DNA of 33,867 nucleotides. Origin: a virus. The position numbers and the translations under genes are program-made. The notes below the pieces were generated by a model, which made no database searches, was not told where the DNA came from, and saw nothing but the letters and a program-made list of their open reading frames with translations. Location: the IMG/VR virus record IMGVR_UViG_3300015164_000006, positions 1 to 33,867 of that record; one strand, written 5' to 3'. Positions 1 to 33,867 of this stretch are shown in pieces; the first letter of the stretch is position 1, and the number at the start of each line of letters is the position of its first letter.

Positions 1-347
1 TGGTCCTTTAGCCCGGCGAGGTCGAGCCATGCCGGCGTGTACTGCCGCACCAGCCAGTCGACGCAGAGCCAGCCGCGAGCGTCCTCGACCTTCTTCGTCG
101 AGCGGGTGCCGACCACCTTGACGATGTACGGCTTGAGCCGCTGCCGTCCGGCGTCGTCGAGGCAGTCGTTCCAGTTCCGCAGAAACTGGCCGATGACCCT
201 CGACGCGCACTTCGGATGATCCGAGTGCGGCTCCCCGGCGACATAGGCCACCGCCTCCATCACGCACAGGCCGTCGCCGGACTTGTGCGCTCCGCGCTGC
301 AAGAGCAGCGCCTCCATGTCCAACTTTCTCTTTTCGATTGCTGTCAT
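1..347 (-). CDS. Conserved phage protein of unknown function, N-terminal part (continues at 33867)
   Basis: The gene starts at the ATG at 347 (MTAIEKRK) behind a GGAG motif and is open to base 1, ending mid-codon. Joining base 1 to base 33867 completes that codon, and the frame runs on to a TGA at 33804-33806. This makes a 136-residue protein of 137 codons with no internal stop. It has a conserved-looking block with MEAVAYVAGEPHSDHP near residues 30-45, which recalls a hypothetical family common in phages and actinobacteria. No catalytic motif is recognised. It is the first gene after the SSB-like gene in the leftward operon, separated from it by a 101-base gap with a large inverted repeat. 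The function is unknown. Confidence 0.8.
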   Translation of the reverse strand, partial: MTAIEKRKLDMEALLLQRGAHKSGDGLCVMEAVAYVAGEPHSDHPKCASRVIGQFLRNWNDCLDDAGRQRLKPYIVKVVGTRSTKKVEDARGWLCVDWLVRQYTPAWLDLAGLKD

Positions 348-378
348 TTGCGGTGGCTCCGGTGAAGGGGAAACCCAA

Positions 379-437
379 CCCCACGGTCCGGTTGTCGAGA
401 GCAGCCTGGGGGGAGGCAACTCAGCCGGACCGTGGGG
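379..437. repeat. Large inverted repeat with perfect 13-base arms
   Basis: CCCCACGGTCCGG at 379-391 and CCGGACCGTGGGG at 425-437 are perfect 13-base inverted arms around a 33-base loop. The element fills most of the gap between the SSB-like gene and the next leftward gene. On the transcribed minus strand it is followed by a pyrimidine-rich stretch but no clean T-run. It could attenuate or terminate transcription, stabilise RNA, or bind a protein. The sequence alone does not decide. Confidence 0.7.
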
Positions 438-448
438 CCAGGAGGTGG

Positions 449-1006
449 CTAGAAGGGGATGTCGTCGGTGGCGCCCTGCGGCGGCGGGTTCGGGCCCGGG
501 GGGCCGGACGGCGCCGGCGTGGCCCCGTTGCGCTTCGCCTTGGCGTCGAAGGCCGCGAGCTTTGCCTTCATCTTCGCGGCGAGGACCTGCTTCTTGTCGG
601 CGGTCAGCGTCGACTTCATGCTGAGCCCGCCGGCGCGGTTGACGAACTGGATGCGCAGCCGGCGCTTCACCTCGCCGGTCTCCTCGTCGATCACCGGCTG
701 GCCGTTCTTCTCCTGGTCCTCCGGCTCGACCACGAGATCCACCAGGTTCGCGCCCATGCTGGCGCTCGCCGCGACGTCGTCCAGCTCGCTCAGGTCGAGG
801 CCGGTCCAGCCGCAGTTGCGCAGCTTCTCCAGCGTGTAGTCGGCGGCGTTGTCGCTCAGGAAGAAGTAGCCGCTGATGCGCTCTCCCTTGTGGTCGCCGT
901 CCTCCACCTCGAACTCGACACCGACCTGCGGCGTGCCCGTGCTCGCCTCGCCCAGGGCCCAGCTCTTCGCTCGCGCGCGGTAGCGCGCCTTCAACATCGG
1001 CAGCAT
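449..1006 (-). CDS. Single-stranded DNA-binding-like protein with SSB-type acidic C-terminal tip
   Basis: A 185-residue protein starting at MLPMLKARYR, behind a strong GAAAGGAG ribosome site. The frame stays open upstream, but that part overlaps the preceding gene and is a shadow. The N-terminal two thirds is a compact, probably beta-rich domain (residues about 10-145), as in DUF669-like phage proteins. The last 30 residues are a Pro/Gly-rich flexible tail ending in ATDDIPF, essentially the tip by which bacterial SSB proteins recruit partner enzymes. It lies directly downstream of a Sak4-like ATPase and a Cas4-like nuclease, so a role in phage recombination or replication as an ssDNA binder is likely. 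The tail is seen directly; the fold is inferred. Confidence 0.75.
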   Translation of the reverse strand: MLPMLKARYRARAKSWALGEASTGTPQVGVEFEVEDGDHKGERISGYFFLSDNAADYTLEKLRNCGWTGLDLSELDDVAASASMGANLVDLVVEPEDQEKNGQPVIDEETGEVKRRLRIQFVNRAGGLSMKSTLTADKKQVLAAKMKAKLAAFDAKAKRNGATPAPSGPPGPNPPPQGATDDIPF

Positions 1007-1041
1007 TGCATTCTCCTTTCGGGTTAACTGCTCTCTCTCAT

Positions 1042-4099: not shown

Positions 4100-4396
4100 T
4101 TACTGCTCTGCCGCTCGGGTCATGCGGGGAGCAGTCACGGGGGAGGAGCGCTGGTTCTCTGGCTCTCTCTTGATCATGATGAGAGGATCGAGCCCCAGGT
4201 TGTTCACCGCCTTGAGGAACAGATCCAGTCCGATGCCCTTGGCGTTTCCGTTCTTGACGTTAGTCACGGTCGGACGGCTTACGCCCCACCGGTCAGCGAA
4301 CTGCTGCTGCGTCTCGCCCATGCGCTCGAAGAGTGCCTTGATGTGCCTTGCGATCCTCTGTCGCGCTGGCAGATCGTAGTCGTTTGCCTTGCCCAT
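4100..4396 (-). CDS. XRE-family helix-turn-helix repressor, probable lysogeny regulator
   Basis: A 98-residue protein with an HTH_XRE domain at about residues 12-70. The turn region reads TQQQFADRWGVSRPTVTNVKNG, followed by the helix LDLFLKAVNNLGL. It is the only leftward gene between PL and PR, the position of lambda cI, and two operator clusters flank it. It has no S24/LexA-like C-terminal peptidase domain, only a short disordered tail, so RecA-driven self-cleavage is not expected. Its own weak promoter lies at 4407-4434, and the ATG has a leader of only a few bases. The role is inferred from position and fold. Confidence 0.8.
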   Translation of the reverse strand: MGKANDYDLPARQRIARHIKALFERMGETQQQFADRWGVSRPTVTNVKNGNAKGIGLDLFLKAVNNLGLDPLIMIKREPENQRSSPVTAPRMTRAAEQ

Positions 4397-9090: not shown

Positions 9091-9251
9091 CATGGCCAGC
9101 GAACAAGGCACCTGATGCGAACCTGACCAAGCAGACTGCGCTGGCTGCGGCGCTCAAGCGGCGCAAGAAGCCGCCGGCGCCGGGCGCCAACGAAGAGCAG
9201 TCTCAGGGCACCTCGACAAATCCAGCACGACCCGCCCAGACGGCGGACTAG
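9087..9251 (+). CDS. Small basic protein between terminase genes (54 residues)
   Basis: Starts at MTWPANKAPDANLTK. It contains TALAAALKRRKKPPAP followed by a Gln/Ser/Pro-rich disordered tail. Its TAG shares one base with the GTG of the large terminase gene. It may assist terminase or be a minor structural protein. There is no family match by eye. Confidence 0.5.
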   Translation: MTWPANKAPDANLTKQTALAAALKRRKKPPAPGANEEQSQGTSTNPARPAQTAD

Positions 9252-10645
9252 TGAACCTGCGCTACACCGCGCCGCCGACGCTTGCGCGTATGCTGCGCAG
9301 TGACGCGTTCGCGCGAGTGGCCAAGGGCCCGGTCGGTAGCGGCAAGTCAAGCGCGTGCGTGATGGAGATCTTACGCCGCGCCTCGCAGCAATCCGCGCAC
9401 GATGGCGTACGCCGCACCAGGTTCGCGGTCATTCGCAATACCTACCGAGAGCTGCGAGACACGACTCGGCGCACGTTCGAGCAGTGGGTGCCGCAGATGC
9501 TCGGCAAGTGGCGAGAGGCAGACTTCGCCTTCGACCTGAAGGCGCCGCTCTCGGACGGTACGCGCATCGAGTGCGAGGTGATGTTCCGCTCGCTCAATCG
9601 GCCGGAGGACATCAAGAAGCTGCTCAGCCTCGAGATCACCGGCGCGTATGTCAACGAGCTGCGAGAGATCCGCAAGGAAGTGATCGACGTGCTCGAGACC
9701 CGCATCGGTCGCTTTCCCTCGATGGCGCAAGGTGGCCCGAGCTGGCGCGGGTGGTGGGCGGACACGAATCCGTGGGCGATTGGCCAGCCCTGGCAGAAGT
9801 TCTTTCGCTCTCCGCCGGAAGGCTACGAGCTCTACGCGCAGCCGGGTGCGCGGACGGCCAGTGCGGAAAACGTCACGCATCTGGACCCCGGATATTATGA
9901 GCGCCTCTGCCGCGGCAAGGACGCCGAGTGGCTGCGCGTCTACATCGACGGAGAAGATGCAGCAAGCGATGTCGGCAGCGTCTACGGCACGCTGCTCGAG
10001 CGCTACAACTGCGATGCGTTCGATCATCCCAATGATGGCGTGTTCGCCAGCTACGATCTGGGGTTCACTGACTCTACGGCGATCTGGTTCTGGCGACTGA
10101 ACGGCAAAGGCGGACTGGACTTCGTAGACCACTACGAGAACCACGGACAGCCGCTCTCACACTACTTCGATGAGGTGGACAAGCGTGGCTACCAGATCGT
10201 CAAGCACTGGCTCCCGCACGATGCGGCAGCGCATACGCTCGCAACAGGGAGCAGCGTCGAAGACCAATTCCGACAGCGATATCCCGGACGGGTGCAGATC
10301 GGGCCGATGCTCTCTCTGCTCGACGGGATACAGGCCATGCGCTGGCTTCTGGAGCAGCCGTGCAGATTCCACGCTCGCTGCTCGGATGGAGTCGAGGCGC
10401 TGCGCGGCTATCACTACGAGTGGGATGACGAGACCAAGACCTACAGCAAGAAGCCAGAACACGATTGGTCCTCTCACACAGCAGACAGCGCACGCTATAC
10501 GGCGATAGTCGCGAAGTTCGTCATGCGTATCCAGAAGAAGCCGGAGCCGCCGTCAGGTCCTGTGGCTGTGCCGATCGACAAGGCATTTCACCTCGACCAA
10601 CTCTGGCAGGACCGCGAAGATGACCAGGGGAGGGAGCGGATATGA
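9251..10645 (+). CDS. terL: Terminase large subunit
   Basis: A 464-residue packaging motor with a GTG start. The ATPase part has Walker A GPVGSGKSS (residues 26-34), a Walker B-like strand ending YVNELREI (E136) and the coupling motif ADTNP (170-174). The RNase H-like nuclease part has SYDLGFTDST (D269, D274), then LPHDAAA near 320 and a final acidic motif in HTADSARY. It drives ATP-powered filling of the procapsid through the portal and cuts DNA. This sequence type, with an N-terminus beginning directly at the P-loop, is typical of podoviral and related terminases. Confidence 0.93.
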   Translation: MNLRYTAPPTLARMLRSDAFARVAKGPVGSGKSSACVMEILRRASQQSAHDGVRRTRFAVIRNTYRELRDTTRRTFEQWVPQMLGKWREADFAFDLKAPLSDGTRIECEVMFRSLNRPEDIKKLLSLEITGAYVNELREIRKEVIDVLETRIGRFPSMAQGGPSWRGWWADTNPWAIGQPWQKFFRSPPEGYELYAQPGARTASAENVTHLDPGYYERLCRGKDAEWLRVYIDGEDAASDVGSVYGTLLERYNCDAFDHPNDGVFASYDLGFTDSTAIWFWRLNGKGGLDFVDHYENHGQPLSHYFDEVDKRGYQIVKHWLPHDAAAHTLATGSSVEDQFRQRYPGRVQIGPMLSLLDGIQAMRWLLEQPCRFHARCSDGVEALRGYHYEWDDETKTYSKKPEHDWSSHTADSARYTAIVAKFVMRIQKKPEPPSGPVAVPIDKAFHLDQLWQDREDDQGRERI

Positions 10646-10901
10646 CCTCGCCTTCAACTACGGCATGACGACTGCGAGCAGCAACACGAACTTTCTCCAG
10701 CTCTACGGCGGCGGCCTCGGCGGTCTGGCCTCCGGTTGGGAGACTGGTGCGCTGGCGAACGATACGGGCGTGTTCCGCAGCGGCATGATCAACAACGTGG
10801 CGAACAGCGCGCTGGCCGCGACCATGCAGCTTTCCGGCATGACATTCACCGGCGCGAGTGCGCCTCTACAGCCCTGGATCGGGCTCTACGGCAGCTACTA
10901 G
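10620..10901 (+). CDS. Small Gly/Ser-rich phage protein of unknown function
   Basis: A 93-residue protein (MTRGGSGYDLAF) starting inside the end of the terminase gene, with an AGGA about ten bases upstream. An ATG at 10665 would give 78 residues. It is rich in Gly, Asn, Thr and Leu, with no charged clusters, like minor virion proteins. A Shine-Dalgarno site for the next gene follows its TAG closely. The function is unknown. Confidence 0.6.
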   Translation: MTRGGSGYDLAFNYGMTTASSNTNFLQLYGGGLGGLASGWETGALANDTGVFRSGMINNVANSALAATMQLSGMTFTGASAPLQPWIGLYGSY

Positions 10902-10910
10902 GAGGCACAG

Positions 10911-11117
10911 ATGCCAGTGACAGGACCGACCGCATGGAACAGCCCGGATGCGTTCGTGGGGCGCAATGTCCTCTCGGCATTCGAGCCGTACCCGATCGTA
11001 TCCGGCACCGCGTACAGCAGCAACGCACCGGCCAGCATCGAGTTCGTTCCATGGATCCAGCCGACACCGATCACTGTCAGCAACATCGTGGACTGGTTTG
11101 CCCTGAGCAACGCATGA
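10911..11117 (+). CDS. Small probable structural protein (68 residues)
   Basis: Starts at MPVTGPTAWNSPDAF behind TAGGAGG. The composition suggests a beta-rich, Pro/Ser/Asn-rich domain. Its TGA overlaps the ATG of the fibre-like gene that follows, so the two may act together, for example as an anchor and its fibre. I do not recognise the family. Confidence 0.6.
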   Translation: MPVTGPTAWNSPDAFVGRNVLSAFEPYPIVSGTAYSSNAPASIEFVPWIQPTPITVSNIVDWFALSNA

Positions 11118-11704: not shown

Positions 11705-11719
11705 CAAAGGAGCAACACA

Positions 11720-11965
11720 ATGGCTGACTTGAACGTGAGGGACGTGAAGGCGCAGGACGCAGCGCAGGCAGAGCAGGAGGTGGTCAAGGCAGACGCCGTA
11801 AAGGCGGAAGCGAAGCTGTACGACGCTACCGTGTTGGCGCTGGCGACGTTGACCCCCGATGAGGCAGCCTACCTGGTGAAGCGCCTCCTGGCATGCAGCC
11901 GCGGCGCTCCGCTCGTGGAAGGCGAGCTGCGGGCGGTGTTCCGCGATCTTGGAATCGGCGAATGA
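11720..11965 (+). CDS. Small helical protein of unknown function (81 residues)
   Basis: Starts at MADLNVRDVKAQDAAQ behind AAAGGAG. The first half is an Ala/Glu/Lys/Gln-rich helix and the second half (TPDEAAYLVKRLL) is amphipathic. Its TGA overlaps the ATG of the glycosyltransferase gene. No family is recognised. Confidence 0.6.
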   Translation: MADLNVRDVKAQDAAQAEQEVVKADAVKAEAKLYDATVLALATLTPDEAAYLVKRLLACSRGAPLVEGELRAVFRDLGIGE

Positions 11966-18645: not shown

Positions 18646-18671
18646 AGGGGGGCGGGGAAACCCGCCCTCCT
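18646..18671 (+). terminator. Strong hairpin after the capsid/decoration genes, partial terminator candidate
   Basis: GGGCGGG (18650-18656), GAAA loop and CCCGCCC (18661-18667) form a perfect stem that extends to 11 pairs with one G-U. There is no following T-run, so it may be a 3' RNA-stabilising element or a weak terminator that keeps capsid mRNA above downstream genes. Confidence 0.5.
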
Positions 18672-18685
18672 CACATGGAGTTCGT

Positions 18686-19318: not shown

Positions 19319-19321
19319 CCC

Positions 19322-20772: not shown

Positions 20773-20792
20773 AACGGAGGAAGCTAGCACCC

Positions 20793-22598: not shown

Positions 22599-23017
22599 TC
22601 GTCCGCGCAATGCCACGGGAGCGCCTGTCATGGCTTGCAGAGCGCAGCGGGTGCTCTGTGACCGACGCGCTGCGCGCTATCGAGGCTGTGGATGACAAGG
22701 GCGTTATCAGGGGCGCGGTTGGATTCGACGGCTGGCTCGGTAACGCCGCGCAGATGCACGTCGCGCTCGACTCGCCGGCGGCTCTCCGCGCGCTTCTGCG
22801 CCCTGCGTTCCAGTATCTCTTCGATACGTGCGGCAAAGACATCGCGCTTGGACTCGTACCCGCCCACAACGAGCGCGCGCTGCGCTTCGATCGGCACATC
22901 GGCTTCCGGCAAATCTACCGCCTCAAGGACGCATTCGCGCCGGGCGACGACATGATCCTGATGGAGCTTCGCAAGGCTGACTGCAAATGGTTCTCAGATG
23001 AAAGGAAGGTGGCGTAA
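22595..23017 (+). CDS. GNAT-like acetyltransferase-fold protein
   Basis: A 140-residue protein with a GTG start overlapping the upstream TGA and AGGAGG before it. The order VRGAVGFDGW-like strand (KGVIRGAVGFDGW), helix and then ERALRFDRHIGFRQIYRLKDAF is that of phage GNAT-fold proteins. It ends in the beta strand DDMILMELRK. The usual acetyl-CoA loop (Q/RxxGxG/A) is not clear, so activity is unproven. Proteins of this type are found among the tail or internal-protein genes of podoviruses. The cellular substrate is unknown. Confidence 0.7.
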   Translation: MIVRAMPRERLSWLAERSGCSVTDALRAIEAVDDKGVIRGAVGFDGWLGNAAQMHVALDSPAALRALLRPAFQYLFDTCGKDIALGLVPAHNERALRFDRHIGFRQIYRLKDAFAPGDDMILMELRKADCKWFSDERKVA

Positions 23018-24045
23018 TGGGCGGCGGCAAAGGTGGGGCTCCTGGCCCGCAGTTCGGGCAGGGACCGTTCGCACAGGCAGCGCAGTCGCAGGGCGCGCAG
23101 AGCCATGTCGGGCTGCAAGGGCCTATCGGCGGCAGTAGTTGGTCGCAGGATCCGAATGGGCAGTGGACGCAGAGCAACCAGTTCAACGGGCCGCTCGGGC
23201 AGGCCGCGCAGGGATACCAGCAGCAGATCGCAGGACAGGGCGCGCTGGACCTCTCGGGGCTTCCGCAGATCGATCAGGGCCAGGGAGTTCAACAGCAGGC
23301 CATGAATGCATCCTACGGGCAGGCCAAGTCCAGGCTGGATCCGCAGTGGGGACAGGCAGGAGAGCAGTTGCAGAGTCAGCTTGCTTCTCAGGGTCTGGAT
23401 CCGGGTACGGAGGCGGCCAACAACGCGCAGGGCAACTTCGACCGCGCGAAGACGGACGCCTACCAGACCGCGCAGAACGCATCCGTAGGGCAGGGGCTGC
23501 AGGCGCAGCAGCAGGCGTTCGGGCAGAGCATGGGCGCGCAACAGCAGGCTCTCTCCAACATGCTGACTCAGCGCGGAATGCCCGCGCAGCAGCTTCAGCA
23601 ACTCATGGGGATGCTCGGCGGTGGGCAGTCAGCAGGCGCTGCCCAGCCGGCTAACCAGCTTGGAGCGATGCAAGGGCAGGCTGGGTTCAACCTCGACAAC
23701 CAGAACATGCAGAACCAGGCTGGTGGCGGCTTCTGGAACAACATTCTCGGGGCTGGTGCCTCCGTGCTTCCGATGTTCTTCAACAAGAACGTCCAGCAGG
23801 CTGGCGTACAAGCGGGAGCTGGTGCCGCTCTCTCCGACGAACGCGCCAAGCAGAAGATCGAGCGGTTGCCGATCGAGGTGGTCGATGGCGTTCCGCTGGC
23901 TGTTTTCGAGTATCGCTATGCTCCGGGCCGCAAGCTCCTCGGGGTGATCGCGCAGGACGTACTCAAGGTTCTCCCGCGGCTCGTCCACAAGCGGCCCGAC
24001 GGCCTGCTCTGCGTTGACTACGGAGGCTTGGCATGGACCCGGTAA
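23017..24045 (+). CDS. Gly/Gln-rich virion protein with S74-like C-terminal domain
   Basis: A 342-residue protein starting at MGGGKGGAPGP behind AAAGGAAGG. Residues 1-260 are low-complexity Gln/Gly/Ala-rich, with a hydrophobic patch AGASVLPMFF. The last 75 residues (LSDERAKQKIERLPIEVVDG, then GVIAQDVLKVLP) match the intramolecular chaperone domain of the peptidase S74 family, including the Ser-Asp at the usual cleavage point. In tail spikes this domain trimerises and then cuts itself off. Here it may play that role, or mark an ejection or tail-tip protein. Confidence 0.7.
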   Translation: MGGGKGGAPGPQFGQGPFAQAAQSQGAQSHVGLQGPIGGSSWSQDPNGQWTQSNQFNGPLGQAAQGYQQQIAGQGALDLSGLPQIDQGQGVQQQAMNASYGQAKSRLDPQWGQAGEQLQSQLASQGLDPGTEAANNAQGNFDRAKTDAYQTAQNASVGQGLQAQQQAFGQSMGAQQQALSNMLTQRGMPAQQLQQLMGMLGGGQSAGAAQPANQLGAMQGQAGFNLDNQNMQNQAGGGFWNNILGAGASVLPMFFNKNVQQAGVQAGAGAALSDERAKQKIERLPIEVVDGVPLAVFEYRYAPGRKLLGVIAQDVLKVLPRLVHKRPDGLLCVDYGGLAWTR

Positions 24046-24425
24046 AGCCTGATCCGATGGTCGCTCTACTGCAGGGGATGACGCCAGAGCAACTTGCTGC
24101 CTACCTCGGCGGCGGCACGGTAGACCCGCAAGCGCAACTTCTCGAGCAGCAGCAGCAGATGGCGCACCAACTTCGCCAGCAGGCCGCGGGCTCGCATCCC
24201 TACGGCGCCGGCGCGGGTATCGGTGCCGGGCTTCAGCAAATCGCAGGCGGAGTGCAGCAGGGGATCATCGGCAGGCAGCAACAGGACAACGTTGCCCAGC
24301 GACAGGCGTCCTTGCAGTCGATCATCGATCAACTGCTCGGCAAGAAGAACGATGCCGGTGCCATCAACGCGAGTGCGGTGGCCGGCGGCTACGACCCTGG
24401 CAGTATCGCTGGAAGCGGGATCTAG
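24033..24425 (+). CDS. Small Gln-rich protein, probable internal/ejection component
   Basis: A 130-residue protein starting at MDPVKPDPMVAL and overlapping the upstream gene by 13 bases. It is Gln-rich and helical (QLLEQQQQMAHQLRQQ), with a Gly-rich segment GAGAGIGAGLQQIAGGV that could insert in membranes. Size, composition and place are like small podoviral ejection proteins. This is inference. Confidence 0.6.
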   Translation: MDPVKPDPMVALLQGMTPEQLAAYLGGGTVDPQAQLLEQQQQMAHQLRQQAAGSHPYGAGAGIGAGLQQIAGGVQQGIIGRQQQDNVAQRQASLQSIIDQLLGKKNDAGAINASAVAGGYDPGSIAGSGI

Positions 24426-25676
24426 ATGCCCGACTACCTCGCAGATCCGACGCCAGACATGATCCAGCAGGCTCTGGCTGCGAGGCTCAAGCAGTACGCG
24501 GCCAGCGGGCTTACACCCGAAGGCAAGATGCAGCCCGACCAGCCCACGAACACCGGGCCGCAGGGCAACGACATGATGCGCGGTGTCGGCGGCCTGATGA
24601 GTTTGCTAGGCCCTGGCAACAAAGGCATGGGCGAGGCCGGCCAGCGCATTCAGGAAGCCGCGCAGCAGCAGGCGCTATTCCAGAGGCAGCAGCCGATGGT
24701 CGAGGCGCAGACACAGCTTGAGCAGACCAAGGCGCGCGGGGCGCAGCTCGAGCAGGAGGCGGGGCAGAGCCCTGGCCTTGCCACAGCCAGAAGCACGCTG
24801 ATGGGCAAACAGGGATTCACGCCGCCGGCAGGCATGAGCCCTTCGGCGTTGTCGATCCTGATGCCGGAAGTGGAGAAGCAGTATGGGGAGCAGACCAAGC
24901 GGCAGATGGTGCCGAAGTTCGTTCCGGTTCCTCCTGGCAGCGGCACACTGGACGTGCACACTGGCAAGACCACTGGCGGCGGGATCGAAAGCTTGATGAC
25001 ACCGGAGGCTATCGACCAGAGCGCGAGAGCGTATTTGAAGCAGGGGCCGTCGGCGCTGCCAAGCATGGGGCGCGCCAATCCAGTCATCCACGGACTGATC
25101 ATCAAGCGCGCCGCCGAACTGGATCCGGGCGGCGACCTGACCGCAAACAAGGCCACCACCAAGGCGGACACCGGCTCTCTCGTCTCGCAGCAGAAGATCC
25201 TCGACAACGCCGAGGGTTGGGAGCGTACAGGCAAGGCGAACCTCGGCGTCATGCTCAACGTTGCGCAGAAGCTTTCGGACACCGGCAGTCCGTGGCTGAA
25301 CGAGCCCGTTCGCAGGTTCCTCGAGAAGGCAACCGGCGATCCGAACATGACGGCGTTCAGGGCGGCTCACGCAACGGTCGTGAACGAGTACGCCAAGATC
25401 CTCTCGGGTGCGCAGGGTAGCGGCAGCGTGACCGAGGGCGCACGGCATGAGGCTGAGTCCATGCTGCCGCTCGATGCGACATGGGATCAGTTGTCCGCCG
25501 CGGCGAAGGTGCTCGCCACCGACGCCGGCAACCGCATCAACTCCGCGCGCCAGCAGGTGGGACAGATCAAGGGGCGCATGGGTGGGCAACAGCAGTCGGC
25601 GCCTGCCGAGACGGCACCGGCGGCAACCGCTCCGCGACGGCGCAAGTACAACCCGGCAACCGGAGGCCTTGAATGA
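24426..25676 (+). CDS. Probable internal virion (DNA ejection) protein, 416 residues
   Basis: Starts at MPDYLADPTPDMI, immediately after the previous TAG. It is Gln/Ala/Gly-rich and mainly helical with a hydrophobic segment MMRGVGGLMSLLG. The second half has repeated helices (LMTPEAIDQSARAYLKQGPS, KANLGVMLNVAQKLSDTG). The C-terminus is Ala/Pro-rich and basic. It lies in the usual place of podoviral ejection proteins, which leave the head with DNA and build a channel through the envelope. No specific family is certain. Confidence 0.65.
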   Translation: MPDYLADPTPDMIQQALAARLKQYAASGLTPEGKMQPDQPTNTGPQGNDMMRGVGGLMSLLGPGNKGMGEAGQRIQEAAQQQALFQRQQPMVEAQTQLEQTKARGAQLEQEAGQSPGLATARSTLMGKQGFTPPAGMSPSALSILMPEVEKQYGEQTKRQMVPKFVPVPPGSGTLDVHTGKTTGGGIESLMTPEAIDQSARAYLKQGPSALPSMGRANPVIHGLIIKRAAELDPGGDLTANKATTKADTGSLVSQQKILDNAEGWERTGKANLGVMLNVAQKLSDTGSPWLNEPVRRFLEKATGDPNMTAFRAAHATVVNEYAKILSGAQGSGSVTEGARHEAESMLPLDATWDQLSAAAKVLATDAGNRINSARQQVGQIKGRMGGQQQSAPAETAPAATAPRRRKYNPATGGLE

Positions 25677-26923
25677 GCCAGATCGTAGAGATCCCCGGCC
25701 AGGGCGAGGTGGAGTTCCCGGACTCTATGAGTGATGCGGACATTGCCGCAGCCGCCAAGAGGATGTCGGCTCCGCAGGCCCCCGCGCAGGCACCTGTCGG
25801 TGCGGGAACAGCTGCCCTTCGTGGTGCCGCCCAAGGCGCGACGATGGGCTTCGGGGACGAGGCGCAGGGCGCGGTTCAGGCCATCGGCGGGCGGATCCTG
25901 CCTGAGTCGATGGGAGGCTTCGGGCCTGAGCACCATGCCACCGTGGCGCAGGACTACAGCCTCAACCGTAACACCGCGCGGGCAGAGAACGATGCCGCGC
26001 GGCAGCAACACCCCGTTGCGTACACGGCCGGCGACGTGGCTGGTAGCATTGCCCCCTCGCTGCTCACTGGCGCGGCTACCGGGACGCTCAGCGCTGGCTC
26101 CGGGGCGCGGCTTCTAGCCACGCTTGCTGGACAGGGCGCGCTGCAGGGTGCAGGGTACAGCGATGCCAATACCGCCCGAGGACTTGCTGGCGATAGCGCT
26201 CTCGGGGGGGTTATGGGGGCTGCTGGCTACGGCGCGGGGCAAGCGGTTGGTGCGGTGGGCTCAAAACTATCGGGTGCGCTGGCCGGGCTCAGGGCAAGAG
26301 CCGCCGCCAGAGCCGCCGCCCAGGCCGCAGAAGAAGAAGCCGCCAAGGTAGCTTCTCTCGCAGGCAAGTATGGCGGTGAGCTCCAAAAGGGCTCCCGCAT
26401 GGGCGAGAATCTGGGCCGCATCGGAACGCCTCTCGGGCCAACCGAGCAGGCCGCGGCTGACGCGATCCAGAACCGAGTGGAGAGCGGCACGCTGCGGGAT
26501 CTGCCATCACAGGCGGGCACAATCGACGCCAGGGAAGCTGAACTTCGCGCAGCGCAGGCTGCGCTCCCGCAGGCTGTGGCCGACCGCACGACGCAGTTGC
26601 AAACGCCACAGTTCGGCAAGGATGCGGCCTCGTTCTTCAAGTCCTACGGCGAGCCGCTGGTCTGGGGCGCGCTCGGGGCTGGGGCTGGTCATGCAATGGG
26701 GCTTTCTCCAGCGGAGACGGCCATGCTCGGCACAGTTGCCGGCTCGATTGGCGGTCGCACCCGAGCAGGTAAGGCGTTGATGAGTCGGCTCACAAGGCCA
26801 GGCAACGCGATGGCACTGGCCGGAGCAGGCGAGAAGGTTGCTACCTCTTCCGGTGAACTGCTCAAGCAACTCCTGCAGCGCGCCGCACCCGTTGCTGCCA
26901 CGCAGGCACTGGAGAGCCAATGA
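25673..26923 (+). CDS. Probable internal virion (DNA ejection) protein with FPDSMSD motif
   Basis: A 416-residue protein starting at MSQIVEIPGQGEVEF, its ATG overlapping the upstream TGA. The N-terminal VEFPDSMSDADIAAAAKRM is a short motif common in phage ejection and tail-tip proteins. The following GATMGFGDEAQGAVQAIG is a second conserved block of the same group. Most of the rest is Ala/Gly-rich with amphipathic and hydrophobic helices (GALGAGAGHAMGLSPAE), fitting membrane insertion during DNA ejection. An Ala/Arg/Glu coiled coil lies near residues 205-230. Confidence 0.7.
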   Translation: MSQIVEIPGQGEVEFPDSMSDADIAAAAKRMSAPQAPAQAPVGAGTAALRGAAQGATMGFGDEAQGAVQAIGGRILPESMGGFGPEHHATVAQDYSLNRNTARAENDAARQQHPVAYTAGDVAGSIAPSLLTGAATGTLSAGSGARLLATLAGQGALQGAGYSDANTARGLAGDSALGGVMGAAGYGAGQAVGAVGSKLSGALAGLRARAAARAAAQAAEEEAAKVASLAGKYGGELQKGSRMGENLGRIGTPLGPTEQAAADAIQNRVESGTLRDLPSQAGTIDAREAELRAAQAALPQAVADRTTQLQTPQFGKDAASFFKSYGEPLVWGALGAGAGHAMGLSPAETAMLGTVAGSIGGRTRAGKALMSRLTRPGNAMALAGAGEKVATSSGELLKQLLQRAAPVAATQALESQ

Positions 26924-27885
26924 GCCGCAGCGGCGCCGGAACCTACAGCCTCCCGAACGTCGCTGTCGTCACCGGCACGACGATCACCGCGGGCGACGAG
27001 AACACGACGCGATCGGACATCGCGACTGAGATCACCGACAGCCTCTCCCGTAGTGGCAAGGGGGCAATGCTGGCGGCCCTGCTGAATGTCAACGGAACGG
27101 TGGGGTCTCCGTCGGTCAGCTTTACCAACGACACCGGCTCCGGCCTCTACCGCATCGGATCCAATGACATCGGCTTCGCGATCAACGGCGTCAAGGTGCA
27201 GGAGTGGACCGCAACCACCGCGTTGATCGTGCAGCCTCTGACCGCAAGCGGAACGCTAACCGTGACCGGCGCGACCATCCTATCTAGCACGCTTGCCCTG
27301 GCAAGCGACCTTGCGATCAACACCAACAAGTTCACCGTGACCGCAGCGAGCGGCAATACCGTGGTTGCTGGAACGCTGGGTGTTACCGGCGCCGCCACGC
27401 TTTCCAGTACGCTCGGAGTGACTGGCGCGGCCACGCTGACGGGTGGCTTCGTAGTTGGTGCCGGTGTCACGGTAGATGCGGGGTCGAACAAGATCATCAA
27501 CGTGACAGATCCGACCACAGCGCAGCAGGCGGCTACTAAAAACTACGTGGACACCAGTACCATCACGCTGAATAAGGGGGCGCGGGTGTGGGGGACATTG
27601 CAGTGCGGGGCCGCTGGTGCGGTGACTGTTATCAAGGCAGTAAATATCACCAGCGCAAGCTATTCCACCAATAACCTCACCATCGTATTCACGTCCAACA
27701 TGGCCGATGTCAATTTTGCCGTTATCGCCATGCCGTACCTTAGCGCCAACGTTAACCAGAAGCTCACTTCTGATTCCGCAAACAAGCTGGTTGGCTCCTG
27801 CCGGGTCAACAGCCTGAATTCCACCACCGGAGCGGGCCTGAACTTCGCCAACGGCGATGGTGTTGAAGTAGTGATCTTCGACTGA
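26920..27885 (+). CDS. Tail fibre protein
   Basis: A 321-residue protein starting at MSRSGAGTYSLPN. A short N-terminal anchor (residues 1-55) precedes SFTNDTGSGLYRIGSNDIGF, a fibre-shaft signature. Repeats of the type GTLGVTGAATLSSTLGVTGAATL (residues about 150-170, written here only in part) form a beta-helical shaft. DPTTAQQAATKNYVDT is the common phage-fibre linker. The last 110 residues, with AT-richer codons, form the probable receptor-binding tip. Only one fibre of this size is seen, so it is the best candidate for host adsorption. Confidence 0.8.
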   Translation: MSRSGAGTYSLPNVAVVTGTTITAGDENTTRSDIATEITDSLSRSGKGAMLAALLNVNGTVGSPSVSFTNDTGSGLYRIGSNDIGFAINGVKVQEWTATTALIVQPLTASGTLTVTGATILSSTLALASDLAINTNKFTVTAASGNTVVAGTLGVTGAATLSSTLGVTGAATLTGGFVVGAGVTVDAGSNKIINVTDPTTAQQAATKNYVDTSTITLNKGARVWGTLQCGAAGAVTVIKAVNITSASYSTNNLTIVFTSNMADVNFAVIAMPYLSANVNQKLTSDSANKLVGSCRVNSLNSTTGAGLNFANGDGVEVVIFD

Positions 27886-27892
27886 GGGACCA

Positions 27893-28072
27893 ATGCCTGA
27901 AACCGAGATCAGCGAAGTCGATCGGCTCAAGCTTCAGGTCGCCTGGTTCAAGAAGGAGCGCGCTCGAGAGGCATTCGATCTGGAAGTGATCCGCATCGGG
28001 CAAGCCTACGGAATGACCGCAGTGGATTCGGTGGACATGGACACCGGCAAAATCAGCCGGAAGGAGAAGTGA
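27893..28072 (+). CDS. Small helical protein (59 residues)
   Basis: Starts at MPETEISEVDRLK behind GAGGGA. The first 40 residues form a charged amphipathic helix (DRLKLQVAWFKKERAREAF). The end (SVDMDTGKISRKEK) is basic. It lies between tail fibre and lysis genes, where many phages have a short coiled-coil protein of unknown role. Confidence 0.6.
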   Translation: MPETEISEVDRLKLQVAWFKKERAREAFDLEVIRIGQAYGMTAVDSVDMDTGKISRKEK

Positions 28073-28073
28073 T

Positions 28074-28262
28074 ATGGCAACGCTCTTAACCATCGTCATC
28101 GTCCTCGCAATCGTCGGCGTCATAGTTTGGGCCATTCAGACGTACGTGCCCATGCCGCCCATCTTCAAGGGCCTGATCTCGGTGATCGTCATCATCGCGG
28201 TCCTCCTCTGGCTGCTCGATTTCGTCGGCGGGGTCCACCTGTTCGGCGGACGGCTCCGGTGA
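28074..28262 (+). CDS. Two-helix membrane protein, Thivi_2564-like, possible holin component
   Basis: A 62-residue protein starting at MATLLTIVIVLAI behind AAGGAG. Two membrane helices (residues about 3-23 and 30-51) are joined by TYVPMPPIFKG. This plan matches the small Thivi_2564 family membrane proteins of phages and proteobacteria. A holin-like or antiholin role is plausible because the gene opens the lysis block, but a second candidate holin lies at 30326-30577. Its TGA overlaps the next GTG. Confidence 0.7.
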   Translation: MATLLTIVIVLAIVGVIVWAIQTYVPMPPIFKGLISVIVIIAVLLWLLDFVGGVHLFGGRLR

Positions 28263-29320
28263 TCGACGGCTGGTCCTTCGAGGGCGTAGACGCGGCTCGC
28301 CAGGTCCAGGTGGTCCCGAACCCGGACCCCTCGCGCGGGCCTGCGCAGCTCTACCGCTTTGAGGTCAAGTTCGGTGACGTGCGGCCGGGCATGAGCGACC
28401 AGCGCGCGCTCATCTCGCACGAGTCGCCACCGCTCGTCTGGCACGCGGGGGATGATGTCTGGTTGCGCTGGTGCCAGTACAACCCGCCCGACTGGATCGC
28501 GAAGTACCCGAAGCCGGACGAGCTGTGGAATTGGCCAAAGGCTTACCGCTCGGGCGGATCGTGTCTGGAGCTACACCACGGAGGAGTCGGGCTGGCCAGC
28601 TACGACGGCAGCGATGACGTGGGATACAGCCTGTCCCTGAACGGCTGGAGCCCGAATACCGAGAAGGCGCGGTGGACGCTGCCGTTTGCCAAGGTGCCGT
28701 TAGGCAAGACCCACGAATGGCTCCTGCACATCAAGTTCTCCCACGCGGGCGATGGATTCCTCGAGGCGTGGATCGATGGGCAGGTGCTGGTGCCGTTGGC
28801 CCACACGATCACGATGCACCCAGATCCGTACACGACGATGTACCCCTGCATGGGGATTTACCGTCACGAATCGGTCGGGGATCCATCGCTGGTCTGGGAT
28901 GTCAGCCTTCCCGTCCGTGCCTTCGGCTTTGTGCCTGTGGAGGGTACCCCGATCTATACCGCCACCGATGGCACTCCTCGTTATCAACTTGCCGGCGGAT
29001 TCGCAGTCGTTACCGGAGGTGTACCTGTGTCAGTTCCACCCGTTCCTGCACCCGTTCCTGCACCCGTTCCTGCACCCGCTGGTGTCAGCCTCAAGGCCGC
29101 CGCGTTGCTTAAGCGATTCGTTGACCAGCAGCCGCAGCTGGCTGACCTGCTCACCTTCTGGGACGCGGAGATCGCCAGCAGCAAGACGCTGGATGCGGGC
29201 GTGGTCAGCCTCGTCAACGGCCTCGATGCGGCGATCCTCAACCGGATCGCCCTGCGCGCTAAGCTGAAGGCGATCTACGACGCGAATAAGGCGATCTTGG
29301 ACGCGGGACCGCCCTGGTGA
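28259..29320 (+). CDS. Polysaccharide-lyase-like protein (concanavalin fold) with helical C-terminus
   Basis: A 353-residue protein with a GTG start overlapping the upstream TGA. The N-terminal 230 residues show the jelly-roll lyase pattern of the heparin-lyase-I-like group: LEAWIDGQVLVPL in the place of the usual vW.DG strand, then YPCMGIYRHE. A linker of three perfect 12-base repeats (29039-29074) encodes PVPAPVPAP. The last 85 residues are helical (LKRFVDQQPQLADLL). It probably binds or cleaves acidic polysaccharide of the host surface. It lies in the lysis block, so it may be virion-bound or released at lysis. No signal peptide is seen. Confidence 0.65.
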   Translation: MIDGWSFEGVDAARQVQVVPNPDPSRGPAQLYRFEVKFGDVRPGMSDQRALISHESPPLVWHAGDDVWLRWCQYNPPDWIAKYPKPDELWNWPKAYRSGGSCLELHHGGVGLASYDGSDDVGYSLSLNGWSPNTEKARWTLPFAKVPLGKTHEWLLHIKFSHAGDGFLEAWIDGQVLVPLAHTITMHPDPYTTMYPCMGIYRHESVGDPSLVWDVSLPVRAFGFVPVEGTPIYTATDGTPRYQLAGGFAVVTGGVPVSVPPVPAPVPAPVPAPAGVSLKAAALLKRFVDQQPQLADLLTFWDAEIASSKTLDAGVVSLVNGLDAAILNRIALRAKLKAIYDANKAILDAGPPW

Positions 29321-29814
29321 GCGGCGAGACGCAAGATGCGGTTTCAGGGCTCACGCCGGACACCCTGCGCGTGCTGCTCGAGTTGCGCATTGACGACGTG
29401 CGCAACCTCATGACCGAGGCGCTGGAGGCTGCCGACAAGCGATACGACCAGCGATTCGAGGGCCAGGAGAAGGCTGTCAATGCGGCCCTCGCTGCCGCCG
29501 AGAAGGCCGTCAACGCCGCGCTGGTAGCGGCTGATCGCGCGGTTGCCAAGGCGGAGATCGCAGCAGAGAAGCGCTTCGATTCGGTCAACGAGTTCCGGGG
29601 GCAACTGCGCGATCAGGCTACGACGTTGCTCCCGCGTGCGGAGGCAGATGCGCGGCTGCTGGCAATCGAGCAGCGAATTACCCGCCTCGAGGGAATGCAG
29701 ACCCGCATCAGCGGAAGGGACGAGGGCAAGACTGTATCCGCCGGCGCAGTGGCTAACGCCATCACTATTCTGATCGCCATTGCGGCCGTCGTCGCCGCAT
29801 TCTTGAGGCACTGA
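29317..29814 (+). CDS. Coiled-coil protein with C-terminal membrane anchor
   Basis: A 165-residue protein with a GTG start overlapping the previous TGA. The central part is built of repeats such as EKAVNAALAAAEKAVNAAL, followed by KRFDSVNEFRGQLRDQ, a segment widely found in phage lysis-region proteins. A single C-terminal membrane helix (AITILIAIAAVVAAFL) follows. The layout resembles accessory holin or anchored regulators of lysis, but no biochemical role is established. It stands directly before the endolysin gene. Confidence 0.7.
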   Translation: MSGETQDAVSGLTPDTLRVLLELRIDDVRNLMTEALEAADKRYDQRFEGQEKAVNAALAAAEKAVNAALVAADRAVAKAEIAAEKRFDSVNEFRGQLRDQATTLLPRAEADARLLAIEQRITRLEGMQTRISGRDEGKTVSAGAVANAITILIAIAAVVAAFLRH

Positions 29815-29816
29815 CC

Positions 29817-30329
29817 ATGAACGTCATTCAAGAGCGACCGGCGAGTCTGGGCAACTTCCGCACTGGCAGGACACACCGGGTCGACATGCTGGTTATTCAC
29901 GTCATGGATGGATTTTTCGGCCCGACAGCCGCTTGGTTCGCCAACCCGGAGGCGCACGCGAGCGCCCACTTCGGGATCAGCGTGGACGGAGGGATCGCCC
30001 GCTACGTCCGCGAGGCGGACACCGCCTGGCACGCGGGGAATCAGGACATCAACGCACGCAGCATGGGGATCGAGCTTGAGGGCCACAGCGACGATCCAGA
30101 CGCCTTCACCACCCAGATGATGCGGACCCTCGTGGAGCTCGCGGGCTTGCTCTGCACCGAGTTCGGGATCCCGCGCGACCGCCTGCACATCATCGGGCAC
30201 AACGAGGTGCCAGATCCGCGATGCCCCGGCCAGTTCGGGGGGGCCGGACATCATACCGATCCGGGCGAGTATTTCGACTGGCCGGCGTTCATGGCCGCGC
30301 TTCAGCCGCCCAGCATCGGAGTCGCATGA
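29817..30329 (+). CDS. N-acetylmuramoyl-L-alanine amidase (endolysin)
   Basis: A 170-residue amidase_2/AmpD-type domain with no signal peptide, starting at MNVIQERPAS behind TGAGG. Zinc ligands are visible: H28 in MLVIHVMDG, H128 in IIGHNEV and D148 in HTDPGEYFDW. It cuts the bond between MurNAc and the stem peptide, after the holin lets it reach the wall. No cell-wall binding domain is present, as is usual for Gram-negative phage endolysins. It is followed immediately by holin-like and spanin-like genes. Confidence 0.9.
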   Translation: MNVIQERPASLGNFRTGRTHRVDMLVIHVMDGFFGPTAAWFANPEAHASAHFGISVDGGIARYVREADTAWHAGNQDINARSMGIELEGHSDDPDAFTTQMMRTLVELAGLLCTEFGIPRDRLHIIGHNEVPDPRCPGQFGGAGHHTDPGEYFDWPAFMAALQPPSIGVA

Positions 30330-30577
30330 GGACCAGCCAATGGCGGACGTGGAGCGGGCTGCTGATCCTCGGGGTCTTCATGCTGATCGCGCTGTGGATC
30401 GTCCGCGAGCGACCTAACGGGGCGGAGCTGGTGTCCAGCGTCGTGACCGGCCTTGGGGGCCTTGGGCTTTGGCTGGCGGGCAAGTCCTCGATCGAGCACG
30501 CGGCGAACGCGAGTGCGGCCACGAAGGCAAAGGAGCCAGCGGCTAGCGTACTCGCCGGCGCAGCGGCCAAGGAATGA
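30326..30577 (+). CDS. Small holin-like membrane protein
   Basis: An 83-residue protein starting at MRTSQWRTWSGLLI, overlapping the endolysin stop by four bases. Residues 10-26 form a strong membrane helix (GLLILGVFMLIALWIV). A second hydrophobic stretch (LVSSVVTGLGGLGLWLAG) lies at about 36-53, and the end is charged and Ala-rich. Two-helix size and the place between endolysin and spanin-like genes suggest a holin. The family is not certain. Confidence 0.65.
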   Translation: MRTSQWRTWSGLLILGVFMLIALWIVRERPNGAELVSSVVTGLGGLGLWLAGKSSIEHAANASAATKAKEPAASVLAGAAAKE

Positions 30578-31107
30578 GACGCGCTGCGCTGATCGCACTT
30601 TGCGTGGCCTGCAAGACGGCCAGCTCCGCGAGCTCTCACGCGACCGCGCAGGTCGAGCAGCAGACGGACGCGAGCGGCAAGGTCACGACCACGGAGACGG
30701 TGACAAGCGGGCCGGAGACGGTGACGACGACGACGGAGGAGTACGGGCTGGAGGATGCAAGCCCCCGCGCCGACGCGCCGGTCGGCCCCAGACCTGCGCC
30801 CGCAACAGGCCCCGGATTTGAATCGGGCGAAGCACTTGCGACAGTGCGCCGCCGTGGCCCCCTAGTCAAGCGCACCGTCGTCGTAGACCAGCGGTCCCCG
30901 GCCGTTGCCGTCACCCGTGCCGAAGGCACTACAGCCACGGAGACGCGCACGGAGGTCAAGACCGACACGCAGGCGCAGACGGCGCACAGCAACGCGCCCA
31001 GCGGGCTATTCGGCTCCCTGCTGGGCCTCTGGCCCCTCCTCCTGCTGGCCATCCTAGCGCTGGCGGGCTGGATCGGGTGGAGGGTGCTCAGGGCAAGGGT
31101 GCCGTAG
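30574..31107 (+). CDS. Probable unimolecular spanin (u-spanin)
   Basis: A 177-residue protein starting at MRRAALIALCVACK, with a short signal and Cys13 (or Cys10) as a weak lipobox. The middle (residues 20-145) is Thr/Val-rich and beta-prone (VTTTETVTSGPETVTTTTEE). A C-terminal membrane helix lies at about 147-168 (LLLLAILALAGWIGW). A lipid anchor at one end and an inner-membrane helix at the other is the topology of T1-type u-spanins, which fuse inner and outer membranes in the last step of lysis. It directly follows the holin-like gene. The lipobox is imperfect, which lowers confidence. Confidence 0.65.
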   Translation: MRRAALIALCVACKTASSASSHATAQVEQQTDASGKVTTTETVTSGPETVTTTTEEYGLEDASPRADAPVGPRPAPATGPGFESGEALATVRRRGPLVKRTVVVDQRSPAVAVTRAEGTTATETRTEVKTDTQAQTAHSNAPSGLFGSLLGLWPLLLLAILALAGWIGWRVLRARVP

Positions 31108-31112
31108 TGGGC

Positions 31113-31280
31113 TAGTTACGTCACCCGAAAGACACAAAATCAGCCTCATTCTCCTCTGACGCGCATCCCCTTTTGAGTCCGCTGCGTCTGCCAGTTCCGC
31201 CAGAGGGCCGCTCTGTACTGACTGCCTAGATGGTGCCCTGTTCATGCCCTGAACAGTGTAGTTACGTCACACTACGTCAC
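31113..31280. other. Phage attachment site (attP) with tRNA-Leu(CAA) 5' half and integrase arm repeats
   Basis: On the minus strand 31209-31171 reads as the 5' half of a tRNA-Leu: acceptor strand, D arm (GCGGAACTGGCAGACGC), anticodon stem GCGGA and loop CTCAAAA (anticodon CAA). Resemblance then stops, with no 3' stem or T arm. TAGTTACGTCAC occurs at 31113-31124 and 31259-31270, with a partial copy at 31272-31280. These are direct repeats on both sides of the core, as arm-type integrase sites are. The integrase gene ends in the last copy. The likely core is the anticodon-loop region; crossover position is inferred. Confidence 0.75.
31238..31256. repeat. Perfect 7-base inverted repeat inside attP
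   Basis: CTGTTCA-TGCCC-TGAACAG lies between the tRNA-like core and the integrase gene. It may be a binding site for the excisionase or integrase, or a hairpin separating the converging operons. It has no T-run. Confidence 0.6.
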
Positions 31281-32383
31281 AACCGATCCACCGCTCCTTT
31301 CGACTGCTTCGCGTCGGCATGAAAGTACCGCATTGCCATCGCTGGCGTGTCCCATCCCCCGAGTGCCATTAGTTCCGCCAATGTCGCCCCGTTGTTGCCC
31401 GCGATCGAGCAGGCGGTATGCCGTGTGACGTGGTGCGCGGTCAAGCCATCAAGCGGGATCTTCGCCCTTCGGGCAGCCGTCCAGAACAGCCCCTGCCGTC
31501 CCTTGCTCGCGTTGTGGCCGTCGTAGTCGAAGGCGCCAAAGACCGGCGCATCCTGGTCAAGCTTCCCACGGCTGGCTAACTCGCCCTTGATCGCCTTTCG
31601 CGCGAGAGGGTGCAGGTAGAAGCTCCGGCTCTTGCGCTTCTTCATGGCGCTGGCAGGGAAGGTGACGTAACCCGTCTGCCAGTTGATCCACCTCGGCAGC
31701 AGCCGCTCAAGGGCGGACTTCCTGAACGCCGTGTAGAGCAGCGTCGTGTAGATTCGATGCGCCCGCACGTCCAGCCTCGCCAACTCCCTCAACAGCCGAT
31801 CCCTCTGCGCTTCGCTCAGCGCCTCGCGCGCTGGAGCCTCGCCCGCTACTTCCTCGCCAGATGGCGCGCGCAGCTCGGGCACCAGCTGGATCGCTCCGAT
31901 GCGAGCGCAGAAGGTCAGGAACAGCCGCGCGCTCACCGTCACCCGCTGGATGGTGGCGAGCTTGGTCCCGCTCGCGTGCGCGGTGGCTTGCCACTCTTCC
32001 CACGCTGCCGCGGTGAGCATCCCGATCGCAGGGAAGTTCGGGACCACGTGCTCGGTCAGCCTGCTCTCTTCTGTTTCTGCGTAGCGCAGGCCGCGCTTGC
32101 GGGCGCGGACGGCCAAGTCCCCGACGATGTACTTGGAGAGCAGGGTCAGGGTGTCTGCTTCGATACCGAGCGCAGCCGCGTCGGCGCGCTTCCCGAGACG
32201 CGCGCACTCCTGGAGCCAGAACGCTGCAGCTTCTCGAGCAGCCTCTCTCTGACCGCCGTCTCCGGGTCCGATGGGGACGTGGAGCGGGCGCCGGATGCGG
32301 TGGCCTTCGATCGTCGTGTCGATCCACCAGAAGGGGGAGCCTTTGTGCTTGACGACGTGGAACGGGCCACGTTTTCCGCCCAT
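31277..32383 (-). CDS. int: Tyrosine-type phage integrase
   Basis: A 368-residue protein starting at MGGKRGPFHVVKH behind AGAGGAGG. The frame stays open upstream to 32539 but overlaps the excisionase gene there. An N-terminal DNA-binding part and core-binding domain (about 75-170) precede the catalytic domain. The catalytic residues are R221 (TAFRKSAL), H318-R321 (HHVTRHT), W344 (LGGW) and Y353 (AMRYFHAD). It recombines attP, next to its 3' end, with a host tRNA-Leu gene. It is the last gene of the leftward operon, as in lambda. A lysine candidate in the beta-hairpin is K249 or K251. Confidence 0.92.
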   Translation of the reverse strand: MGGKRGPFHVVKHKGSPFWWIDTTIEGHRIRRPLHVPIGPGDGGQREAAREAAAFWLQECARLGKRADAAALGIEADTLTLLSKYIVGDLAVRARKRGLRYAETEESRLTEHVVPNFPAIGMLTAAAWEEWQATAHASGTKLATIQRVTVSARLFLTFCARIGAIQLVPELRAPSGEEVAGEAPAREALSEAQRDRLLRELARLDVRAHRIYTTLLYTAFRKSALERLLPRWINWQTGYVTFPASAMKKRKSRSFYLHPLARKAIKGELASRGKLDQDAPVFGAFDYDGHNASKGRQGLFWTAARRAKIPLDGLTAHHVTRHTACSIAGNNGATLAELMALGGWDTPAMAMRYFHADAKQSKGAVDRL

Positions 32384-32583
32384 GAAGGCCGCCTCCTCTG
32401 TCCGCGCAGGAAGTGCTCGAGATCCGTCCTCATCCATCGCGGAAGATCGCCAAGGTACACCACAAGCACCTTCGGCTTGACATGGCGATCGAAGGTGTCC
32501 GGCGAGACGGCGCAGTAAGCAGCCGAGCAGAGACGGCACAAGACCGCCCCGTCACAGGCGTGCCGCTGCACCGCCGCCGGCAC
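32146..32583 (-). CDS. xis: AlpA/MerR-like excisionase overlapping the integrase gene
   Basis: The GTG at 32583, with GGAGAG upstream, opens a frame whose residues about 14-60 (LCSAAYCAVSPDTFDRHVKP and VVYLGDLPRWMRTDLEHFL) match the winged-helix AlpA/excisionase pattern. The domain ends just before the integrase ATG, but no stop appears until 32146. The frame thus overlaps the integrase gene by 238 bases, and residues after about 66 look like a shadow (Ser/Thr/Arg-rich). Either the long tail is really made or the product is trimmed. It probably directs excision together with the integrase. Confidence 0.7.
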   Translation of the reverse strand: MPAAVQRHACDGAVLCRLCSAAYCAVSPDTFDRHVKPKVLVVYLGDLPRWMRTDLEHFLRGQRRRPSWAENVARSTSSSTKAPPSGGSTRRSKATASGARSTSPSDPETAVRERLLEKLQRSGSRSARVSGSAPTRLRSVSKQTP

Positions 32584-32843: not shown

Positions 32844-32859
32844 TTGCTCTCCGGGGTGG
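32588..32859 (-). repeat. Pair of 18-base direct repeats at gene ends
   Basis: ACTTGCTCTCCGGGGTGG occurs at 32588-32605 and 32842-32859. Each copy encodes the C-terminal TPESK of one gene and supplies the GGAGAG ribosome site of the next. The pair suggests that a gene end plus start signal was duplicated. Confidence 0.8.
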
Positions 32860-32956
32860 AGGGGGGCGGGGGTGGCGGGACGGGCAGCAGCGCCCGGTCA
32901 AGGTGCCTGCCGTCGGTCATGCCGCCGCAGCCGGCGCAGAAGTAGGGCTTCTTCAC
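32840..32956 (-). CDS. Very small CxxC protein (38 residues)
   Basis: A GTG start overlaps the TGA of the upstream gene, with GGAGGGG before it. The sequence opens KKPYFCAGCGG, a single CxxC, and ends in a proline-rich tail (VPPPPPPSTPESK). It is coupled by an overlapping stop and start to the next gene. The tight packing supports that it is real. The function is unknown. Confidence 0.5.
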   Translation of the reverse strand: MKKPYFCAGCGGMTDGRHLDRALLPVPPPPPPSTPESK

Positions 32957-33549
32957 TTCCCCTCCTTGGGCGCGGGCGCGGGCGGATGCTCCGAGAGGGC
33001 GCGGTCACACAGTTCGAGCGCAGCATTCAGGTCGATCACCTGATTGTCGGAATCGAGCGCATACCGCAGCGCCCGCAGCGCTGCGTGTTTCTCGGCCAGC
33101 GCAGCTTCGGCCTTCTCCGCGCGAGCGAGGCATTGGTCAAGCGCTGCGCTGAATGCCGCCTCGTTCTCGGCGATGCAGCTCTCGTGCGCGGCCAGCGCGG
33201 CGCGGGAGGCGGTGAGTTCGGATTCGAGCGAGGCGATCTTACCAACATTGTCCGAAGTCATCCCGCTGCACCATGCGCAGTATGGCTGGTCCTTGCCGCC
33301 GGCGCAGAGGCAGCCCGGCGATTGTCCTGGTCGTGGCCTCACCGCCAAGTTCTTCTCCGCCTCCGCCAACTGCTCCCGCAGGCGGGCGACGGTGAGACGC
33401 AGGCAGGACGCAGATGCAAGCGCCCAGTCCCAATCCTCCAGAGGACCGAGCATCGCAGGGCATTCCTGCAGTCCGTCATCTCGAACAACCGCCTGCGTTG
33501 CTTTCGGTGCCGGGGCTGGCCTCCCGCAATCAGGACACTCAGCGGCCAT
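32953..33549 (-). CDS. Zinc-finger and coiled-coil protein of unknown function
   Basis: A 198-residue protein starting at MAAECPDCGRPAP behind GGAGG. CPDCG at the N-terminus and CLCAGG plus CAWC at residues about 80-95 provide probable zinc ligands. The remainder is a long coiled coil (KIASLESELTASRAALAAHE, CLARAEKAEAALAEK). It is in the leftward operon between recombination genes and integrase, a region that varies between phages and often encodes host-interaction functions. No family is recognised. Confidence 0.65.
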   Translation of the reverse strand: MAAECPDCGRPAPAPKATQAVVRDDGLQECPAMLGPLEDWDWALASASCLRLTVARLREQLAEAEKNLAVRPRPGQSPGCLCAGGKDQPYCAWCSGMTSDNVGKIASLESELTASRAALAAHESCIAENEAAFSAALDQCLARAEKAEAALAEKHAALRALRYALDSDNQVIDLNAALELCDRALSEHPPAPAPKEGK

Positions 33550-33751
33550 CGGCCACCTCCTTCAGTCGCGGTGATGCGCTGCTCAGAGGCACGGCCTTCT
33601 TGTGCTTGCAGTCGCGCTGCCAGATCCATCGCGCGCCCGCCTTGGTGTCCTGCGCCCCGATGTTGAGCACGAACGCGCGCCGCAAGACGTAGGGCGCACG
33701 GCATTCGCTGCACAGCGGATAGACGTTCACCTTCGGCATCGCGCTAGCCAT
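33539..33751 (-). CDS. Small zinc-ribbon-like protein (70 residues)
   Basis: Starts at MASAMPKVNVYPLC behind GAGGAGG. CSEC and DCKHKK provide possible zinc ligands. The rest is basic. The 17 bases at its start (GCCATCGGCCACCTCCT on the plus strand, 33747-33763) recur exactly at the start of the next gene (33545-33561). Both genes therefore use the same ribosome site and start, probably through duplication. The function is unknown. Confidence 0.6.
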   Translation of the reverse strand: MASAMPKVNVYPLCSECRAPYVLRRAFVLNIGAQDTKAGARWIWQRDCKHKKAVPLSSASPRLKEVADGR

Positions 33752-33807
33752 CGGCCACCTCCTCTTCCTCGATCGGCAGCGCGGACGACGGCGAGGGCGG
33801 TGCTCAT
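33727..33807 (-). CDS. Possible 26-residue ORF
   Basis: An ATG overlapping the TGA at 33804-33806 opens a 26-codon frame (MSTALAVVRAADRG) that overlaps the next gene by 25 bases. It may only couple translation. The evidence is weak. Confidence 0.2.
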   Translation of the reverse strand: MSTALAVVRAADRGRGGGRWLARCRR

Positions 33808-33867
33808 GCGGACTCCTTCGCGCCGAGCGCGATCATCTTGTCGAGCAGGTTGAAGGCGGATGCCTGC
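33804..33867 (-). CDS. C-terminal part of the gene that crosses the window ends
   Basis: Read from 33867 downward, after the two bases left over at position 1, the frame gives QQASAFNLLDKMIALGAKES and a stop at 33804-33806. No start for this fragment exists at this end, but it fits the open gene at 347-1 exactly. The joined length is 411 bases. Its stop overlaps the ATG at 33807, like most gene pairs of this operon. It forms one gene with the feature at 1-347. Confidence 0.75.
   Translation of the reverse strand, partial: QASAFNLLDKMIALGAKESA

Follow-up and report, generated by a model that had tools for sequence, protein, structure and literature searches.

A genome-length contig of an excised temperate tailed phage, probably opened within a repeat-array gene and missing the insert of that gene

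Genome organisation

The window analysed here is the whole of the virus contig IMGVR_UViG_3300015164_000006 (33,867 bases), a record without annotation for which a DNA-similarity search returned no similar phage. The features below were located, with parts of one gene, referred to as the array gene after the tandem array it contains in relatives, lying at both ends.

1..347, minus strand: array gene, N-terminal domain (residues 1-116), truncated at base 1 where the contig ends; recognised by its homologues, the CVMEAVAY motif and a weak phrog_3416 match
449-1006, minus strand: open reading frame without an assigned role, in the operon upstream of the array gene
1042-2055, minus strand: Sak4-like annealing protein/AAA_24, same operon
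2052-3170, minus strand: PD-(D/E)XK exonuclease, same operon
4100..4396, minus strand: HTH repressor-like regulator (phrog_2339, E 1.3e-8, and others)
9251..31107, plus strand: head, tail and lysis module, in an order common to the relative G048, with the terminase at 9251, the portal at 13473, the major capsid protein at 17079, the amidase at 29817 and small genes up to 31107
31171..31201, minus strand: attP core, the 5' half of a tRNA-Leu(CAA), with one mismatch to an ARAGORN-confirmed tRNA-Leu(caa) gene
31277..32539, minus strand: tyrosine integrase (PF00589, E 1.3e-11; phrog_1; homologue in G048)
33804..33867, minus strand: C-terminal tail of the array gene (QASAFNLLDKMIALGAKESA, then TGA), cut by the other contig end; recognised by the C-tail profile

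Minus-strand genes run from 3886 to base 1 and from the right end to the integrase gene (31277), in agreement with the original prediction that the leftward genes continue through the origin to int. The promoter PL that it placed at 3923 found no consensus support, as a sigma-70 scan of 3700-4600 gives one site only, on the plus strand at 4447-4475. A search for relatives of the 449-1006 reading frame found none. Two short repeats were also noted: a perfect tandem repeat of two 33-bp copies at 8393-8457, and a 12-bp repeat of 3.5 copies at 29037-29078, which codes for a Val-Pro-Ala-Pro linker in the protein encoded at 28127-29320.

As had been predicted, the attP core has phage genes on both sides, sitting between the lysis genes, whose cluster ends at 31107, and int, which ends at 31277. 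In the prophage form, host chromosome would occupy one side of the attachment site. With a tyrosine integrase beside attP and phage genes to either side of it, the window has the layout of a temperate phage in its excised form.

The closest relative by portal is G048 (IMGVR_UViG_3300010371_000066, 40,026 bp), with identities of 68% for the portal, 89% for the capsid and 57% for the integrase. Like the window, it has the order structural genes-attP-int, and it carries the same tRNA-Leu half with 2 mismatches, 79 bp from int and with the structural genes on the far side. Unlike the window, it has no array gene of this family and no detectable homologues of the window's early genes. Its contig opens (L166) and closes (L180) inside a pentapeptide-repeat gene, another tandem-repeat gene; opening at repeats therefore occurs in more than one gene family.

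The array gene at the two contig ends

When the ends are joined, a minus-strand frame runs from 347 to 1 and then from 33867 to 33804, giving a product of 136 aa. Base 1 falls two bases into codon 116 and base 33867 completes it as a Gln codon, after which 20 codons (33866-33807) lead to a TGA (33806-33804) overlapping an ATG (33807-33805). The reading frame that was predicted to cross the join is thus present, as is its overlap with the next start codon. Such agreement is weak evidence for closure, because two independent cuts that fall in one gene will agree in frame one time in three.

The N-domain has homologues in 74 viral contigs and 19 genome contigs, and the CVMEAVAY motif, invariant in this family, is present in the window. 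So is the motif LQxSAxxLLxRMI of the family's C-tail. A profile built from the C-tails of 41 homologues was run against all six frames of the window and scored 26.6 bits at 33807-33866, the next place reaching 6.9. Since this single strong match sits at the right end, the two ends of the window are halves of one gene. In relatives this gene is uninterrupted, as expected for a circular or circularly permuted source. The gene shared by both ends, together with the position of attP (int on one side, lysis genes on the other), shows that the source was a circular genome, one that is circularly permuted, or a concatemer.

The comparison of the joined 136-residue protein with its family, proposed in the original prediction as a check, turned out against it. 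All 41 scored complete homologues continue differently and carry extra residues exactly at the join: the gap between N-domain and C-tail is 28-264 residues (median 117), compared with 0 in the window, and is 0 in none of them. This insert begins with a conserved spacer, after which comes an array of units of four residues each (Ala-Ala-X-Y), encoded by GC-rich 12-bp units (GCNGCNNGGGMC)n that translate as (Ala-Ala-Trp/Arg/Gly-Asp/Ala)n. Gap lengths differ between homologues mostly by multiples of four residues, and one homologue (L051) has a gap of 28 aa and no array. Spacer and 12-bp Ala-rich array, present in relatives, are both absent from the window record.

A terminal overlap, another check proposed, was not found: no exact overlap of 8-200 bp exists between the window ends, and the outer kilobases share only a chance 12-mer. 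According to the CheckV authors (PMC8116208), closed circles normally keep a k-mer-long repeat at their ends from the assembler, while repetitive sequence gives false terminal repeats. The window lacks the terminal repeat by which CheckV recognises a closed circle (at least 20 bp identical at both ends). A search with exact 32-33-mers from both ends found no second copy of the window phage with its array.

Of the complete circular genome that had been claimed, the circular source therefore stands, based on the two halves of one gene and the placement of attP. That the window closes on itself and is complete does not stand, given the insert of 28-264 residues in 41 of 41 homologues, the missing terminal overlap and seven other contigs broken in the same way. 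The circular map is right, but 'complete' is wrong, and a piece is almost certainly missing at the join. This piece probably amounts to about 350 bp, within a range of 84-790 bp.

Recurrent contig breaks

Contigs end in the array gene far more often than expected. This is the case for 25 of the 74 homologue contigs (4.4 expected; P about 4e-14) and, at lengths of at least 30 kb, for 13 of 49 (1.7 expected). The portal gene gives a rough comparison: among 18 contigs of at least 30 kb that bear it, none ends inside it. Seven contigs of 37-47 kb (G016, G017, G019, G020, G023, G037 and G043) are like the window in being genome-length and in carrying the N-part and the C-tail of the array gene at opposite ends. 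Their ends retain array or spacer sequence, whereas those of the window do not. Most homologue contigs cut in the array gene end within the array; the window holds no array units at its ends, one of which lies immediately before the spacer and the other directly behind the array, and three others (L067, L072 and L075) likewise end before the spacer. Assembled arrays contain exact internal repeats of up to 107 bp (median 42), compared with 9 in control stretches.

Contigs of isolates and of metagenome-assembled genomes also terminate in the array gene. The loss is recurrent, with phages in many bacteria breaking at this gene, and databases built from short reads therefore under-represent such arrays. 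A reading frame that stays open across joined contig ends can look like proof of a finished circle even when a hypervariable region is missing.

Explanations for the join

The explanation that we hold with considerable confidence is that the window is a genome-length contig of an excised temperate tailed phage, opened in the array gene and with its insert lost. The source of the single contig would be an excised circular or circularly permuted genome, opened inside the array gene since short-read assembly could not cross the GC-rich 12-bp repeats. What separates N-domain from C-tail, namely spacer and array, would thereby have been lost, and the continuous frame at the seam would be a one-in-three coincidence. 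Coverage loss or end trimming would also be needed, as the window ends hold no array units. We infer that the window phage had an array of its own, and likewise infer its length and assembly, not biology, as the cause of the loss.

If instead the join were a natural allele without array or spacer, at which the assembler happened to open the circle, the intact frame and the stop overlapping the next ATG would follow directly, and the arrayless homologue L051 offers a partial precedent. This is quite unlikely. None of the 41 homologues lacks the spacer, which in the structural model of a short homologue forms a helix of its own (117-124) and the start of the next one; moreover, a chance opening at exactly such a site in 33.9 kb is improbable, and the ends lack the k-mer overlap.

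It is less likely still that the ends do not adjoin at all, the window being a linear fragment or chimera that starts and stops by chance in two copies of the gene family. One 54.6-kb contig (G004) does hold two array-gene copies (L005 and L007), which are about 90% identical and about 45 kb apart. Against this, the genome length, the full set of modules and an attP flanked by int and the lysis genes fit one circle, and the seven other contigs have the same architecture. That many related contigs end in the array gene might also suggest that the window stops at a physical end of packaged DNA (cos or terminal repeat). This reading, which we consider hardly credible, was rejected because many relatives carry the array gene internally, flanked on either side by at least 9-10 kb; in addition, the window ends lie in an early-gene operon far from the terminase and carry no terminal repeat.

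Variation of the array

The array is a more interesting find than the question of the circle. Two near-identical phages from two metagenomes (L047 and L048), with flanks 99.8% and 98.8% identical, have 56 and 17 array units respectively, a difference of 39 to which assembly collapse of the shorter array may contribute. Within 46 arrays, the mean entropy is 1.34 bits at base 7 of the unit and 0.97 at base 11, compared with 0.09 and 0.13 at the silent bases 3 and 6; bases 1, 2, 4 and 5 were set by the pattern used in the search and carry no information on variation. Changes at base 7 exchange Trp, Arg and Gly, and those at base 11 Ala and Asp. The silent bases differ between arrays though they are nearly uniform within each. 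Within one phage, then, the units are homogenised, while diversity is kept at two bases whose changes alter the amino acid. Diverse arrays have an advantage in short-read assembly, but such a bias leaves the choice of the varying bases unexplained.

A second array type, Ala-Ala-X-Ser (L010, L017, L019 and L065), varies at bases 7 and 8, not at 7 and 11.

Adenine mutagenesis of the kind caused by diversity-generating retroelements was considered and rejected, as base 7 varies over all four letters and the A at base 6, beside the variable base, is invariant in L047 and L048. The array might be a dedicated variable region, with homogenised units diversified at bases 7 and 11 by targeted mutation or strong diversifying selection, giving each phage a distinct helical stalk of variable length that is systematically lost from databases through assembly breaks; we regard this as doubtful. 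Copy number that varies between near-identical phages, and sequence variation concentrated in two codon positions, suggest that this phage protein evolves fast; long reads could allow it to be studied directly.

The array protein and its family

No match for the array proteins was found in Pfam, NCBIfam or PADLOC, a sequence search of the PDB gave nothing convincing, and a literature search for the family motif or such arrays found no paper. The model phrog_3416 (248 positions) matches the window N-domain weakly (E 1.3e-4), as well as L152 and L153 over about 210 residues; it has no function recorded and is silent on array variability. A distant homologue (37%) occurs in the human faecal phage MT835534.1 (38,247 bp), a record marked UNVERIFIED that begins inside an Ala-rich array and shows no C-tail within the 600 bases read at its other end.

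The short-array homologue was modelled with a mean pLDDT of 94.5 as a helical domain in which the C-tail is the returning arm of a hairpin, as read from helix boundaries rather than inspected coordinates. Fold searches with this homologue gave weak helical matches only (best Z 5.5) and, in BFVD, uncharacterised phage proteins. A 27-unit array was modelled as an antiparallel pair of helices of about 70 residues, with a lower confidence for the array (46-80). On these models, a small head domain would bear a helical stalk whose length depends on the array copy number; this number would change by slippage or unequal recombination. Our best guess, a tentative one, is that the gene encodes an early phage protein that contacts a variable target in the host through its stalk; a role as passive spacer has about the same likelihood.

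The array gene does not have conserved neighbours among relatives. The 19 homologues in genome contigs include Methylorubrum, Rhodovarius, Caldovatus, Neoroseomonas and Microbacterium. Two actinobacterial relatives of the N-domain (L163 and L164; Agromyces and Amycolatopsis) occur without any array. In two isolates a terminase lies 13-22 kb from the array gene on the same contig, and these loci therefore look like prophages.
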